Source: Panaeolus papilionaceus
Lineage: Eukaryota; Basidiomycota; Agaricomycetes; Agaricales
Direction of reading: 5' to 3'
NCBI GenBank assembly: GCA_015501605.1
Contig: JADNRZ010000018.1
Span: forward strand, 186,001 to 250,000
Length of the DNA stretch: 64,000 nt
The notes under the pieces are model-generated. The model saw only the letters and a program-made list of their open reading frames with translations. It did not search any database and was not told the DNA's origin. A program made the position numbers and the translations under genes. Below are positions 9,040 through 56,928 of the stretch, piece by piece (the stretch's first letter is position 1; every line of letters begins with the position of its first letter).

Positions 9040-10638
9040 ATGGACCAGGCTCGTATACCATTACCAGGAGTTGAATCATTGCTGAACTTGTCTCGTTTCT
9101 CCAATAGGACTCCTTCCGTAGTTTGCTCAGCAGTAGCTCATCCAAACCTTCGAAGGTAACAACCTTGGGATCTGCCTCGCGCTCACGCGGGATAGCTGTC
9201 CCTTCACCGAAGAAGTATGTTACTTGGCTTCCAGATAATGCACATATCTTGACCATAGAGAAGGAAGACTACCATCGACGCCTCTCAACCTGCGTTCAAA
9301 CCCCGGAAAGTCAAGAACCCACTAGATGGGAAATATCGAGACCGTGCAGCTGAACGGCGTGTTGGAGCGGATAATGATTTTGCACATGTGCGTCATACTT
9401 GGTGAAAACAGTCTGCCTCGCGCTTATACGTTGCATAGGTCGAGGCTGTCCTTCACGACTTTGAACAACGGAATGCGGATATCGAAGACAAGGAAAAGGT
9501 TCGTTACTTGTTCCTTCGCTATGTCCGACCGCATTGAACTGCTTTGAAGCTTGAAGCCCAGCGGAAGTACTTGGGAGGTGATGGTGAACACTCTGTTCTC
9601 GTCAAGGGATTGGATTTCGCCCTCCTGGAGCAAAACAAAGCAAAGTATGGGTTCACAGCCGACGATGCGGACGAGATCGAGAAAGCTTTAATGGAATCGT
9701 CGTCTTCACGCGTCGAACCAGCTGTCCCCAAGAAACGTACTCGTGAAGATCTCATCAAAGATTTGAAGGCAAAGCGGGCTAAAGGCGAAAGCCCAGCAAC
9801 TGTTGCTCCTGCAGATTCTCCGGAGCTGGAAGTGGCAAAACAGCAAGGTAAATTCAAGCCAATAGGCTTCAAGCCCATTGGTGCTACGGAAGAAAAGAGG
9901 AAAAAGAAAAAAGGTGACGGTGACAGGGAACGGAAGAAAAAGAGAAAGGTCGAGGGAGAGACGAACAAGGGGGGAGATGTTGATATGTTGGACGAAACGC
10001 AGAAAGCCTCAACTTCCAAAGCTGCCGAACCTCCTCGCGTCGAGGAAGCTCCTGAACCCGTTGATAAAGACTTTGATATCTTCGCAGATGTTGGCGAATA
10101 CGAAGGTCTCGACATCGACGAGGACGACGAAGATGAGGGTAAAACAGGCGCAATGCAGGTACCCCCAGATGCCGCAGCAGCAGCACCTCCCCCACGACGG
10201 TGGATTGACGACGATGAGCCACCTGCGGCGCCACCAGAACCAACACCAGAGCCTTCTACTCGTGTTTCACACCATCCAAACTCACGGCCAGTATCTGAGG
10301 GTGAAATGAGCGAAGATGAGAAACCCATGCGTCTTGTTCCCCTTGCAAGTTCAGCGTTACCTTCCATAAAGGATCTCTTAGAAGCAGACAAAGCAGCAGC
10401 GTCGTATGCAAAAAACAAAAAGAAGAAAGACAAGAAAAAGAAGGCAAAGGGTGAGGATGATGACGACGATGACGATCAGGATGATGAGAAAGCAAAACAA
10501 AAGTCCATGGCAGCGAAAGTTGACAGAGATTACAAAAAGTAGGCTTTCCGCACACTGAACCTTTCTTGACGCACAATCTGATTTTTTTTTCTTAGATTAA
10601 AGTCCTACACTGACAAGAAGGCTTCGGGCGCTTCATAA
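9040..10638 (+). CDS. RED: RED/IK-family spliceosome protein
   Basis: RED (IK in animals) works with SMU1 in activation of the spliceosomal B complex in the nucleus. My model starts at 9040 with MDQ and a GC-AG intron, then [17 protein letters not shown], an exon with FKPRKVKNPLDGKYRDRAAE, then VEAVLHDFEQRNADIEDKEK, and the RED_N signature LGGDGEHSVLVKGLDFALL. The middle is low-complexity and basic/acidic (KKRKVE-like nuclear signals at about 9890-9955, Asp/Glu runs at about 10110 and 10455). The last exon, after an intron near 10540-10595, gives LKSYTDKKASGAS, like the RED C-terminus. It converges with ZW10 only 115 bases apart. Confidence 0.87.
9049..9107 (+). other. Probable GC-AG intron at the start of RED
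   Basis: To join the only suitable upstream ATG (9040, MDQ) to the exon DSFRSLLSS, the cut must be CAG|GCTCGT with acceptor AATAG|GAC. The alternative GT donor (GTATAC, 9054) shifts the frame into a stop. The 59-base intron has a CTGAAC branch-like site. A different start codon is still possible. Confidence 0.55.
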
Positions 10639-44017: not shown

Positions 44018-44893
44018 TTACGTACAAAAACAACTTGTTTTTATCATTGATGATGACCATGCTAACTGAATCCAAATAACCCAACGCCTTCTCTCCTTTT
44101 CATCTTCTCCTTCGGCGAATCCTACATTCCATGACCTTGTACCATTACCTGACGCCTCTCTCTCTAGAATTTCTATCGCGTCGAATCCAGAATTTTGCAC
44201 TCGCAACAGAAACGATTGGATGGTGTAGCGGCCAGTGTGCAACCCCACAACGATGTGAACCCTTGCATCTGCGCGCTTCTTGAGTGTTTGCTTTAGTGCA
44301 TCGATAAAAATATCATGCAATTCGGAGTTCCAAAGGGTATCTGCGGCAACTACTACGTCGAATCCGTCACATTTTCGAGGGAGGATCGGCGCAGGGTCGG
44401 TACCCCATGCATACGGAAGTGCTCTGCAGTTCGAAGAGACGTCATTCTTCGTTACATTCGCCGACAAAGTTTTGATGAGTTGCTCGTCAGGGTAATCAGT
44501 GACGGTTACCCTGACGTTTGGGTGCGATTTGGCAATCATGATGCTTGGGAGCCCTGCAGAGGCTCCTAATTCGAGTAATTCCAAAGGCTCATCATTACGT
44601 GCTGCCAGAGATTTTAGATCAAGCTCGTTGATATGATCGGCGAGGTATATGGAGGAAACCCAGATAGAGGATGCGTGTAGGGCCCAATTGGTTGCTGCAG
44701 TGTCTGGTGTATCCAAAGTGATGGAAATAAGTTTTTCCTGAGTACAATTTGAAAGGTTTTGCTTTGGAACATAAGTGAACCGTGCTCCGGATGTCGTCAA
44801 TGTGATCGGGTGATAGTCATACATAGTTTGCAAAGAGTCGAAGAGAAAGTCTTCTGGGTCTTGATATGTTTCGAGTGGTGCTGTTGTTGACAT
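44018..44893 (-). CDS. EFM7: EFM7/NNT1-like protein methyltransferase
   Basis: This is a class I SAM-dependent methyltransferase of the METTL21-like group. Yeast Efm7 modifies the N-terminus and Lys3 of translation factor eEF1A. I prefer the ATG at 44893 (MSTTAPLETYQDPEDFLFDS), because the family starts near this point; the same frame is open to 45130. Blocks: FTYVPKQNLSNCTQEKL, NWALHASSIWVSSIYLADHI, the SAM-binding LELLELGASAGLPSIMIAKS, VTVTDYPDEQLIKTLSANV, FDVVVAADTLWNSELHDIF and RSWNVGFAEGEDEKERRRWV. The short tail after WVIWIQLAW (SSSMIKTSCFCT) goes slightly beyond what I expect. Confidence 0.82.
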   Translation of the reverse strand: MSTTAPLETYQDPEDFLFDSLQTMYDYHPITLTTSGARFTYVPKQNLSNCTQEKLISITLDTPDTAATNWALHASSIWVSSIYLADHINELDLKSLAARNDEPLELLELGASAGLPSIMIAKSHPNVRVTVTDYPDEQLIKTLSANVTKNDVSSNCRALPYAWGTDPAPILPRKCDGFDVVVAADTLWNSELHDIFIDALKQTLKKRADARVHIVVGLHTGRYTIQSFLLRVQNSGFDAIEILEREASGNGTRSWNVGFAEGEDEKERRRWVIWIQLAWSSSMIKTSCFCT

Positions 44894-45361
44894 GGTAGAA
44901 ACTGCGGGCAATGGCTTTTTCAAGGGTAAGCAAGGTCGAAAAATATGCGAGACCGATGTTGCACTAGGATAAAGAGCAATACCTGGGAAACGGCTATAAA
45001 TAACACCTATGACGAAGATAAGAGATAAGGCTAGCAGCTCCGTCCTGAGATAAGATGAATAGGACAGTTGCACCCTGATGCTGTGTTGATCGAGTTTAGG
45101 TTGCTTATCACTTAGCAGTTGAGGATGCAATCTGGTTTCTTATAAATCGTAACCTTCACTTTACCCATGCATGCCTCGCAAGAATCCTCCTTCCAGATTT
45201 CTCTGACCTATTTAGGAAATTGTAGGTCCAGGGAGCAAGGCAGGAAGCCGCGAGGCTCGGATTGGGAGGCGGTGGCACTTACACGACGAAGGGATAGATA
45301 CATTTATCGTTGACTTGAGAGGACGTTCTACTGATACAATCATAGTTTTTAGTTTTTACTT
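44894..45361. other. Spacer upstream of EFM7-like gene
   Basis: The EFM7 reading frame stays open to 45130, encoding a hydrophobic stretch (LALSLIFVIGVIYS). An N-terminal extension with a membrane anchor is therefore possible, but I think it less likely than UTR. The rest is the PEX7 3' flank. Confidence 0.35.
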
Positions 45362-51504: not shown

Positions 51505-53203
51505 TCAATTACCGTGATACGGCAGAATTGTGCGGCTGTTAGAGTCCATGATGAGAGAGTACCGATCATGGTATCTCCCGAAGTGATCTTGGTACGCAGG
51601 ATAGAAGCGAGACCTTGAATCGTTAATGTATGCCGACGAATTTTGGTCGTGCATTATTTGCATACTGTTGGGTACCGCGACATGCGGAATTGAAGGGTTA
51701 TGATTGTAAAAGTAGGGTTGCACCGGTGACGTAGGCGTGGGCGCTTCAGCAGGGGAGTACAATTGATAATGCGGGCTTGCGGCAGGCATTGCGGTATACC
51801 TGTCATCATAATGTACTCGCCTTATCTCCACTACAGGAGGTACAGGGTGGGGAGATGCAGGGGATGGTTGCGCGTGACCTATGACCTCGTTATCTCTGAA
51901 TGTTGCTAAGAAAAAGTTGATAGATGTATCAGCAGAACGATCGAAAGCAGCCTGATCTGTATTATATCACCTCTGTCATCGGATAATCCCATGTCATTGC
52001 TTTTGTTATGAGCACATTCAGATTTACCTTCCTGTGTACACGCGGAACATGCACGTTCCACGCATTCACATTTTTTCCTCACGCATGAGGCACAAGGTCT
52101 GCGGAATGACCATGAGTACCTTCAGAAGGAAGACAGCTGCACACGCACCGTGAGCCATCGCAACGGAGTTTATCCCTCCTGTAAACATAGGCAGACCCTG
52201 AGCAAAATCTCGAAAATAATCGACGGGCAAAATATAGACTGACCTGCAATTCATGCACGCCTGCAATGAGAAAAATGACAGGATGATACTGTTAGAATGA
52301 CCGCGAGTATGGTTAAAGACTCAGTGGCGTACCCTCTTAACCCTGGTTCCACGTCCTCTCCCTTTCCTTGGGACGGCAATGCACTCTTTGGAATTGTCAA
52401 TGCAATAGGCACAGGGCCTTGTATCTTCGCAGCGCTTATGGTCGACCCTGCAAGCTTCGCAACGAAGTCTGACAAGCTTGGGGCCTCTTTCGACATGAAT
52501 ACATTCCTCGGACCTGACGACACACCGTCCGCAAGGCCTTTGGTCATCGCACTGCAGGGACAAGTCAAACGATAGCGTATATATCACGATCTAATGTTCC
52601 ATACCTTTTTGTTGTCCCGTCTGCAGCTAGAGCACGCGAGCTTAGCTCTTTCACCTCCAATACGAGGGGCACGATGCGTTGGTGGCGGAGTCGGGGAGCG
52701 CTGGCCGGGCGCTGCTGTGCCGTCGAGGCAATCGATTTGCATATCTCTGCATCTACGACATGGTTTACCCTCTTCACACCTCAGGCGAGCTTTCCTACAG
52801 GCTTCGCATCCATCGACACAATATTCATCAGCGTACCCCCGTTTTATGCAACCACTGCAGGGTCTACAGATTGAAACGCGTGCCAGGACGCGCCAGAAAT
52901 CGATCAACGACCCATCAACGAACCTACGAAGATGTACGAGAGCCACTCACCTGCCTCCGTCGCATCGAACCTTATCGCGCCTGACAAGGCATCAGTCGCG
53001 AAAACACGCGCATCGCGCCATCAGAGAGAATCAACCCACCTGCAACTTGCGCATGCCTTTATTAATGGCGAGCGTGATTGAGATCAAAATATGAGTGTCC
53101 GGTGTCTAGGCCATCGATGTTCATGACATACCCTGATTGTTCGTCGAGGCCATCCGAGCGCAGTGCTGTCGGAAATCGGCAGCGAAGCTGGCGCGCTCAT
53201 CAT
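51505..53203 (-). CDS. Protein with five tandem Zn2Cys6 clusters
   Basis: The start at 53203 gives MMSAPASLPISDSTALGWPR. Splicing then yields five zinc clusters, each with C-x2-C-x6-C-x5-C-x2-C-x6/9-C spacing: CASCRRDKVRCDGGRPCSGC (...C), CEACRKARLRCEEGKPCRRC (...C), CSSCRRDNKKCDDQRPCGRC (...C), CEACRVDHKRCEDTRPCAYC (...C) and CMNCRRDKLRCDGSRPCASC (...C). An extra CSAC follows. Linkers of 2-50 residues are Pro/Arg/Gly-rich. The C-terminal 150 residues (VHYDDRYTAMPAASPHYQLY; RFYPAYQDHFGRYHDRYSLI) are Tyr/His/Pro-rich with no fungal_trans domain. Eight introns are inferred. A single Zn2Cys6 cluster is the rule in fungal regulators. DNA binding is likely, but targets are unknown. Confidence 0.82.
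52062..53053 (-). repeat. Array of five Zn2Cys6 coding units
   Basis: Units lie at 53053-52818, 52808-52728, 52634-52501, 52461-52381 and 52257-52062. Units 2 and 4 have no intron inside. Units 1 and 5 are each cut by introns at the same two codon positions and phases, and unit 3 is cut once. The array fills most of the N-terminal half of the protein. Confidence 0.8.
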
Positions 53204-53547: not shown

Positions 53548-54784
53548 TTATTCGTAGACGGCAATATAATTGATCTGCCATTTGGCCCCTAGGGTATGTG
53601 TCAGTTTCTGAGACAACAGAAATTATGAAGATAGAGCGACTCACAATCGAAGTTCTTAGAGTTGGCCACAGCCTCGGCACATGTCCCTGGGCACCCTGAA
53701 CCGGCGTATGTGGGACCACCAAGGTCACCGCAGATGCTCGTGTTTATCACCAGCTGGTGTTCGTAGAAGTGAGAAGCCATGTCGCAAGTCGTGGATGGGA
53801 AAAAAGCAACGGGTTTACCCCATTTCGCAGGGTCGGGCCTCTTGGATTGGATATCGGAGGGGATATTACCCCTAAAGAATCGCCAGACTCTGATACCATC
53901 CTTATCCCACTGGTGAACGAAAACGCCACCTGCAAGCAGATTCAACTCCTTGCCATAGCTGCGAAGATCTTGATCAGCGAATCCACAACCACGGTTATCC
54001 AAGCCACTGCTTTCACAGACTGGGTGGACAAGGTTGGACGATACGACCTCTTTGTCGTTGAATCCTTCCATGGTGCATCCAGCGGAGGTGTGAAGGGTAT
54101 ACTGGTTGATCGGTCCTTTATGGACACCTTCGAGGATATCAATCTCACCTAAAGTGCATTCTAAGTAGGAGAACAAAATCTGAAATGTTTCGTTACGTAC
54201 CACCAGCAGGCCAGTTAGGTCCAACAGACCAATAAGCGGGCCAAACGCTGCAGCCATGTGGCATCGACCAAAAATCAGCAATGAACAGTCCACCGTTGTA
54301 CTTCTTCTTGGTGTTGATGCGAATGCTGAAGGAGAAAACTATCAGTCATGGTCAAGGTCAGAGCATTAAATCACGTACGAGTCGCGATTTCCACCAACAG
54401 GAACCTGAGTGAAATTATCCACTTTCAGAATAGTGGTACCATCTGGTTGAACGTAGGCAAGCTTTTTCTTGATAGCGTCCTGGCGATTCAAGTAGTTGAC
54501 GTTCCCGTGAGTGGGATCGGGTTGAGCAAAGAACTCCCAATCACTTATAAACAAAATTAGTAACATTAAATCGAAATTATGGAGTAAAGGACATACTTCA
54601 GGAATGATTCACCACGATAGTAATCGACTAACTCCCATGTCTTTCCGGTGTTGTTGCGAACTTGCAGCGACCGATGATGGTTAACACGACGGGAACGGAA
54701 CTGAGATTCATTAGGCTTGCCAGCAAGCCCCTCAAGAGGTAGAGAGGAGAAGAGGACACCAAGTAGAGCGAACGACAGACGCAT
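53548..54784 (-). CDS. Secreted GH16 beta-glucanase
   Basis: GH16 enzymes cut or re-join beta-1,3/1,4- or 1,6-linked glucans in fungal walls. A signal peptide starts at 54784 (MRLSFALLGVLFSSLPLEG). Then come NNTGKTWELVDYYRGESFL, FFAQPDPTHGNVNYLNRQDA, LKVDNFTQVPVGGNRDS and IRINTKKKYNGGLFIADF. The catalytic segment is GGEIDILEGVH, with the E-x-D-x-x-E triad of GH16. MPHGCSVWPAYWSVGPNWP just before it and HQWDKDGIRVWRFFRGNIP after it match Agaricomycete members. The last exon gives AKWQINYIAVYE. Five introns are seen. Several Cys pairs suggest disulfides. Exact substrate cannot be told. Confidence 0.88.
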
Positions 54785-55621: not shown

Positions 55622-56928
55622 ATGCCAGTATCTCGTACGATTATTGAACAGGTTAAAAGGCTTATACCCCCTTTGGATGGAACTTTACACAAGGGACAGT
55701 CTGGTCGGTGCTTTCAGCAATATCTTTGAACCCCTGATCATTCCAACATACGATCTTTACATACAGGTCGTGTTGGTGTTCTCGGAGGTGCTTCTGAGTG
55801 AATAAACCCTCAATGTTACACTTTGCCACCCTATCTGAATATTTAACTTCTGATACAGGTACTCTGGCGCACCATTCTTCGCTGCCATGTCGGCCTTGCG
55901 GCTGGTGCGTTGCACCAAACGAAAATGATTACACAACACGTTCATTCACACTGCATGCTCCATTCCAGGGGGCAGACTTATCACACGTTATATGTTCCCC
56001 AGTTGCAGCTGGACCCATCAAGTCCTACTCACCAGATCTCATCGTTCACCCTCTTCTCCGTGAAGACTCGTGAGTCAAACACTTCTCAATCAGCTCGTCG
56101 CCCGAGCCCCTGAATCCAGTCCAGCACTCCTGAACAAGTTAAACCCGAGCTCGACTCTCTGCTATCCCGCCTTCATGTTCTCATAGTCGGCCCAGGTCTG
56201 GGCAGAGAAAGCTACATGCAATCCTACGCCAAAATGGCTTTAAGCCTGGCCAGGGAAAAGGGCATGTTCATCGTTCTTGATGCTGATGGTCTGTACATGG
56301 TCGGACAGGACGCCTCTGTCATAAAAGGCTACCGACGTGCTGTTCTCACACCCAATGTCGTCGAATTTAAGCGTCTGAGCCAACAGTTTGGTGTGAACCC
56401 TGATACACCCCACAACGAGAGGGCGTTGCTCGTCTCCCGCAAACTCGGAGGGGTCACAGTGTTGGAGAAAGGCGCCACTGACATGATTGCCACTGACTCC
56501 ACAGGCGACGAGGCCAATCTTGCAGCCAGCCATATGGATGGCGCAGACCCACAATTTGAGAAAGCAAAGGAGCTCATTCAGGTGGACATTGAGGGAGGTC
56601 TTAAGCGTTGCGGTGGGCAGGGCGACATTCTTAGCGGTTCAGTTGGGACCTTTATGGCTTGGGGAAAGTGTTATGAAGATGGTATTTACGGGTTTGTATT
56701 TTCTTTCTAGTTCAAATCTTATTCTATTAACGACTCATCTTTAGACCGACCACAATCCCCACATCCCGCATTCCTTTACTTGCCGCTGTTGGAGCGAGCA
56801 TGGTGACACGTACGACGAGCAAGATAACTTTCCAAAAATACCGTCGAGGAATGGTTACCCAAGATATGCTTTCTGAAATCGGAGGAGCTTTTGAATCTGT
56901 GTTTGATGATCCTCAAGGAAAATTGTGA
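55622..56928 (+). CDS. NAXD: ATP-dependent (S)-NAD(P)H-hydrate dehydratase
   Basis: This metabolite-repair enzyme converts damaged, hydrated NAD(P)H back to NAD(P)H using ATP. The start at 55622 gives [20 protein letters not shown], then [31 protein letters not shown] and [20 protein letters not shown]. Further blocks: [32 protein letters not shown], the signature [11 protein letters not shown], and the catalytic loop [19 protein letters not shown] with the conserved Asp. The last exon gives [20 protein letters not shown] and ends [10 protein letters not shown]. About five introns are seen. The family's ribokinase-like fold and length of about 330 residues agree. Confidence 0.92.

Follow-up and report, generated by a model that had tools for sequence, protein, structure and literature searches.

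Five ordered Zn2Cys6 clusters in one protein of mushroom-forming fungi: a candidate monomeric reader of DNA

Introduction

Can the Zn2Cys6 fold be strung several times along one polypeptide, and what would such a protein do? The question is raised by a minus-strand gene at positions 51505 to 53203 of the window, by which we mean the whole stretch of 64,000 nucleotides (nt) of the Panaeolus papilionaceus genome analysed here (GCA_015501605.1, contig JADNRZ010000018.1, positions 186,001 to 250,000, forward strand). Zn2Cys6 proteins form a very large family of fungal regulators, for which one cluster per protein is usual but not required; the Fungal_trans domain is common, but not universal, in the Gal4-type dimeric members. 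The window protein departs from the usual single cluster and carries five. In the accessible sections of PMC5559640, Zn2Cys6 regulators are understood as having one cluster per chain and as mostly paired by dimerisation. An earlier note on this DNA had proposed that the array could work as a monomer, and we compared the protein with its relatives, with solved structures and with the literature.

Results

A nine-exon gene encodes five Zn2Cys6 clusters

Nine exons of the gene, some as small as 17 and 30 nt, join in frame into 1173 nt encoding 390 amino acids (aa), and all eight introns are of the GT...AG type and 50-87 nt long. The features are listed below; "Lys18 place" denotes the position of Lys18 in Gal4, and Pho7 is a regulator of Schizosaccharomyces pombe considered further on.

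51505..53203, minus strand: coding region, exons 53203-53132, 53056-53040, 52980-52951, 52863-52605, 52551-52333, 52260-52244, 52178-52149, 52098-51971 and 51905-51505; supported by the in-frame join, the ortholog alignment and the identity of the related protein P0105 over residues 202-390
52818..53053, minus strand: cluster 1, residues 26-55, C-x2-C-x6-C-x5-C-x2-C-x9-C, exons 2, 3 and 4; Lys33 at the Lys18 place
52728..52808, minus strand: cluster 2, residues 59-85, exon 4; Arg66 at the Lys18 place
52501..52634, minus strand: cluster 3, residues 117-143, exons 4 and 5; Asn124 at the Lys18 place, as Asn299 of Pho7; matched to Pho7 in ortholog P0002
52462..52500, minus strand: linker 3-4, residues 144-156, basic, of near-constant length
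52381..52461, minus strand: cluster 4, residues 157-183; His164 at the Lys18 place; with its tail, the best match of the family profile to Pho7
52258..52380, minus strand: linker 4-5, residues 184-200, net charge +7, split by intron 5 (52261-52332); aligns with the basic tail of Pho7
52062..52257, minus strand: cluster 5, residues 201-227, exons 6, 7 and 8; Lys208 at the Lys18 place
52008..52049, minus strand: sixth knuckle, C232-x2-C235-x7-C243-x-H245, probably single-zinc
51508..52007, minus strand: C-terminal region, residues 246-390, weakly conserved, probably disordered, possible effector region

The five cores all have the spacing C-x2-C-x6-C-x5-C-x2-C, and the final gaps are x9, x6, x6, x6 and x6. 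Pfam counts five stretches of Zn_clus (PF00172) in the window protein (E 1.3e-28; 99.2 bits against a cut-off of 21), so that the tandem full-spaced clusters described in the earlier note hold up in the hidden Markov model search that it had suggested. Zn_clus is the sole Pfam family matched up to E 1; neither a fungal_trans domain, whose absence had been claimed, nor a PAS domain was matched within this limit. When the protein was shuffled 20,000 times with its composition preserved, 19,967 shuffles had no strict core, 33 had one and none had more, against five in the real protein. The predicted model of the Galerina ortholog P0002 has only helices of at most 7 residues, and its block means of the predicted local distance difference test (pLDDT) are at most 53 past residue 250. 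Judged on this ortholog, no coiled-coil dimerisation helix follows the clusters, which fits the claim of the note.

The splicing that brings the clusters into one frame is supported by related proteins. P0105, whose longest contig has 908 bases, is identical throughout to residues 202-390 of the window protein, a segment that spans junctions 6, 7 and 8 and includes the 30-nt exon 7. The match supports the splice sites but is no proof of cDNA, since 908 bases could also hold the unspliced stretch. P0020 (358 aa on a contig of 1193 bases) and P0073 (317 aa on a contig of 1115 bases), both with five clusters by regular expression, leave just 116 and 161 noncoding bases, less than eight introns like those of the window would occupy, and from these lengths alone both contigs appear to be cDNA. 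The nine-exon single-gene model of the note thus stands, and all 30 cysteines are kept in 49 of 61 aligned sequences. Assignment of the clusters to separate genes, or to chance, was rejected on the in-frame join, these 49 sequences, P0105 and the shuffles. A search of the genome with the whole protein scored 6 candidates and listed 8 matches, five within this gene and three elsewhere at E 3.7e-4 or worse, among which no second close copy was found.

The array is shared by several orders of Agaricomycetes

Three homologue searches, which require common 5-residue words and similar length, gave 110 related proteins when combined (71 at E ≤1e-3; 105 at 1e-10, including those 71; 43 at 1e-6, five of them new), and the view of the array as a lone local oddity was rejected on this number. 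Taxonomic look-up of eight named sources gave Sistotremastrales, Gomphales, Hymenochaetales, Gloeophyllales, Jaapiales, Russulales, Amylocorticiales and Boletales, all Agaricomycetes; Galerina, Gymnopilus, Pleurotus and Mycena add the Agaricales. Five complete clusters are present in looked-up members of six orders (P0076, P0067, P0029, P0040, P0036 and P0014), while the Jaapia model P0081 has clusters 3-5 only and the Plicaturopsis model P0035 has four and ends within cluster 5. No protein of Polyporales, Auriculariales, Cantharellales or Tremellomycetes was recognised among the named ones, which is suggestive only, the search being dependent on words and length. The named species appear once each in the search lists, save Ramaria rubella with three paralogs (P0067, P0085 and P0089), and the named homologues are called "hypothetical", "uncharacterized protein" or by automatic names.

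Among 106 proteins (the 105 and the window protein), strict cores number five in 35, four in 29, three in 20, six in one and fewer in 21; some of the lower counts are due to partial predictions or to an extra residue inside a cluster (P0031). We aligned 61 sequences, 60 chosen from the 105 plus the window protein, and of the 12 that do not keep all 30 cysteines, 11 miss cysteines of cluster 1. These gaps coincide with the tiny exons (17 and 30 nt) of the window gene, which gene prediction may have overlooked in the relatives. Pfam at E ≤0.01 finds four stretches in P0002, P0076 and P0067, five in P0040 and six in P0085; its count falls below that of the cysteine pattern in some relatives, so Pfam misses some clusters. 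The public models P0068-P0071 (Lyophyllum shimeji, Termitomyces and Blastosporella) lack most of the array and keep the family tails, through either mispredicted exons or real decay.

Spacing and module identity are fixed along the array

Among the 35 proteins with five cores, clusters 3 and 4 are set 40 residues apart, start to start, in 33, clusters 4 and 5 are set 44 apart in 34, and clusters 1 and 2 are set 33 apart in 28, and the 2-3 step ranges from 51 to 91. Conservation, expressed as the mean majority fraction, is 0.67-0.80 in the clusters, 0.68 in linker 3-4 and 0.75 in linker 4-5, which is as conserved as the clusters and has a net charge of +7 over 17 residues; the knuckle (0.46), the 2-3 hinge (0.31) and the C-terminal region (0.20) score lower.

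The modules also keep a fixed order. When the modules of 49 proteins were each compared with those of the other proteins, 244 of 245 (49 x 5) had their closest counterpart in the same place along the array. A tree of 252 modules with six labels needs 7 label changes against a minimum of 5 and a shuffled mean of 155.6, although it is poorly resolved, with 32 columns and 14 of 248 inner branches well supported. The residue at the Lys18 place also follows position: modules 1 to 5 have Lys (49/49), Arg (47/49), Asn (44/49), Asn (46/49) and Lys (49/49), and the window protein departs from the majority in module 4, with His instead of Asn. A recent repeat expansion was rejected because the modules sort by position, not by species. 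A metallothionein-like zinc store is not favoured either, since the linkers and the positions other than the cysteines are fixed; conservation is the one ground on which it was tested.

Within the window protein, modules 1 and 5 are the most alike, followed by 3 and 4. Clusters 1 and 5 have three intron positions and phases in common, along with exons of 17 and 30 nt, which, from introns read in the window, points to internal exon duplication. From the sequences, we infer that the array was assembled once, before the split of these orders.

Pho7 is the closest known structure

By sequence, the closest solved structure is Pho7 of S. pombe (PDB 6e33, 6o19). The family profile matches it (6o19) at E 4.6e-11 over 50 residues of module 4 and the following linker, the single ortholog P0002 matches it at E 2.1e-8 over module 3, and Foldseek places it in rows 1 and 2 (E 4.2e-3 and 8.3e-3). 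As described in the available parts of the two Pho7 papers, this regulator binds DNA as a monomer with a 14-bp footprint (PMC10910108) and has Asn299 in place of Gal4 Lys18, its Arg326 and Arg331 matching phosphate-contacting arginines of Gal4 (PMC5559640). Counted along the profile alignment, Arg331 corresponds to R196 of the window protein, where 49/49 have Arg or Lys, and Arg326 corresponds to R191, where 42/49 do. Pho7 thus resembles the array in its C-x5-C middle spacing, in Asn for Lys18 and in the basic tail that aligns with linker 4-5, and differs in having one cluster, not five, in 738 aa, with no knuckle reported in those parts. In the window protein the Pho7-type Asn is found in module 3, module 4 having His where 46 of 49 relatives have Asn; the Gal4-type Lys is kept in modules 1 and 5, and module 2 has Arg.

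A sixth knuckle and a variable tail follow the array

The extra CxxC of the earlier note is present but does not stand alone: it belongs to the four-ligand pattern C232-x2-C235-x7-C243-x-H245, probably a single-zinc site. A regular expression applied to the 60-residue stretch that follows the final RPCxxC in 49 complete sequences found C-x1/2-C...C-x-H in 32 (6 of which overlap the second form), C-x1/2-C...C-x2-C alone in 7 and neither form in 10. These ten are P0022, P0023, P0036, P0037 and P0053, which we take to be from five Russulales species, together with P0038, P0052, P0028 (part lost), P0085 (a paralog) and P0006 of Pleurotus eryngii, in which a late start point caused the failure and the residues C..C...CTH are present. 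The CxxC form was seen in Rickenella, Sistotremastrum, Ramaria, Gautieria and two other sequences, and such a swap between His and Cys at the fourth ligand would be compatible with a zinc site.

The C-terminal region is probably disordered, judging from its majority fraction and the low pLDDT in ortholog P0002. Near the C-terminus of orthologs such as P0005, P0013 and P0069 there is a YYPxIDPxID-like motif, and VFDPxLEP occurs near the N-terminus of P0066 and P0084; neither is evident in the window protein. Motifs of this type are possibly activation or docking motifs.

Relation to other zinc-cluster proteins

UniRef automatically labels several orthologs "Transcription activator of gluco...", and an ERT1-like gene of this genome (L016) scores best against modules 1 and 3. 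Rds2/ERT1 activators have one cluster and a PAS domain. Their cluster is similar and is likewise followed by a basic stretch, but the PAS domain has no match in the window protein up to E 1 and the window protein has five clusters. C2H2 polydactyl arrays have an unrelated fold, in which short linkers join fingers that hold a single zinc each; they resemble the five-cluster array in its proposed working only, as zinc modules in series in a monomeric reader, and each module here would hold two zinc ions instead of one.

More than one Zn2Cys6 cluster, namely two, is described for PoZCP55 of Pleurotus ostreatus (PMC7295025) and for CCG_02279/CCM_00582 (PMC6471507). These two-cluster proteins carry septin domains or DUF3468, and a conserved ordered array goes unmentioned in the accessible text of both papers. 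In the open-licence papers covered, as far as their accessible text goes, we found no Zn2Cys6 protein with three or more clusters, either in general or under six ortholog tags, though the domain figure of PMC7295025 may draw an ortholog. To that extent these papers agree with the earlier note, whose author knew of no described regulator of such a build.

Other genes in the genome and the window

A Zn_clus profile search of the genome scored at least 40 candidates and listed at least 18 matches, among which close-set matches occur only in this gene and at one place on C71. There, two Zn2Cys6 clusters lie about 700 bases apart (L009:7033-7900 and 9582-9899, in G000:C71:1432000-1441900). An intron appears to interrupt both at the corresponding position, and the sequence downstream is septin-like (Septin E 8.3e-7). 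The pair may be the counterpart of PoZCP55, with its septin and two clusters, as a putative single gene.

Upstream of the array gene, on the same strand, a neighbour at 53548-54700 (minus) contains GEIDILEG, which resembles a glycoside hydrolase family 16 active site; a 168-aa piece of it had no Pfam match. The array gene starts about 345 bases beyond the apparent stop of this neighbour. Elsewhere in the window, a reading frame at 56114-56707 (plus) matches NAD(P)H-hydrate dehydratase (Carb_kinase, E 1e-27) and one at 44021-45139 (minus) matches lysine methyltransferase (Methyltransf_16, E 2.2e-16).

Discussion

We favour, with a probability of roughly 0.6, the reading that the five-module protein is a monomeric multi-module DNA reader, its DNA binding being extrapolated from relatives, as are its zinc content and nuclear location. 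The gene product would be a small DNA-binding regulator made of five ordered Zn2Cys6 modules, a probable single-zinc knuckle and a disordered tail. Each module would dock on a short DNA segment. Modules 1, 2 and 5, whose residue for base contact is Lys or Arg, would sit on CGG-like triplets; modules 3 and 4, in which most relatives share the Asn of Pho7, would take asymmetric cores of the Pho7 type. Linkers 3-4 and 4-5, both basic, would follow the backbone in the manner proposed for the Pho7 tail, so that one molecule could read a long composite site as a monomer, and the tail would recruit or block the transcription machinery. That the five non-equivalent modules, in the order K-R-N-N-K, read one such site is a more tentative proposal, to which we give slightly less than an even chance.

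The earlier note had suggested a long repeated site read as a monomer. A monomeric array is plausible in view of the orthologs, the rigid spacing, the fixed residues and Pho7, but the position-specific K, R, N, N and K argue for a composite rather than a repeated site. Reading of a long composite site by this fold was not found described in the accessible text of the open-licence papers searched.

The strongest competing explanation divides the protein into two halves: modules 3-4-5, joined by rigid linkers, would read DNA, and modules 1-2, beyond the variable hinge, and the knuckle would contact either another site or a partner protein. The near-fixed 3-4 and 4-5 steps beside a 2-3 step of 51 to 91, the low conservation of that hinge, and a knuckle that escapes the regular expression in 10 of 49 sequences, five of them presumably from Russulales, and changes its fourth ligand, are all in line with such a division. 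However, the residues at the Lys18 place of modules 1 and 2 (49/49 and 47/49) are as fixed as those of modules 3-5, which suggests that these modules read DNA too, and we regard the division as unlikely. Less likely still is that the array binds RNA, nucleosomes or another protein instead of a DNA sequence. Modules 3 and 4 are without the canonical Lys, and DNA binding is a prediction only; yet Pho7, which likewise has Asn there and a tail of similar kind, binds specific DNA sequences according to the available parts of PMC5559640 and PMC10910108, and the kept positions face DNA in both Gal4 and Pho7. A fusion artefact or a decaying gene, with clusters from separate transcripts, is very improbable: the tiny exons and the 12 of 61 sequences that miss at least one cysteine, 11 of them in cluster 1, are outweighed by the 49 complete ones and by P0105, P0020 and P0073, and the gaps sit where gene callers seem to have skipped exons.

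If this old five-module array is a monomeric reader of DNA, the Zn2Cys6 fold can be strung into a long reader, and the recognition site could be near unique in a 50-Mb genome. The five-cluster array would then make a candidate regulator of mushroom-forming fungi out of proteins known only by placeholder or automatic names.
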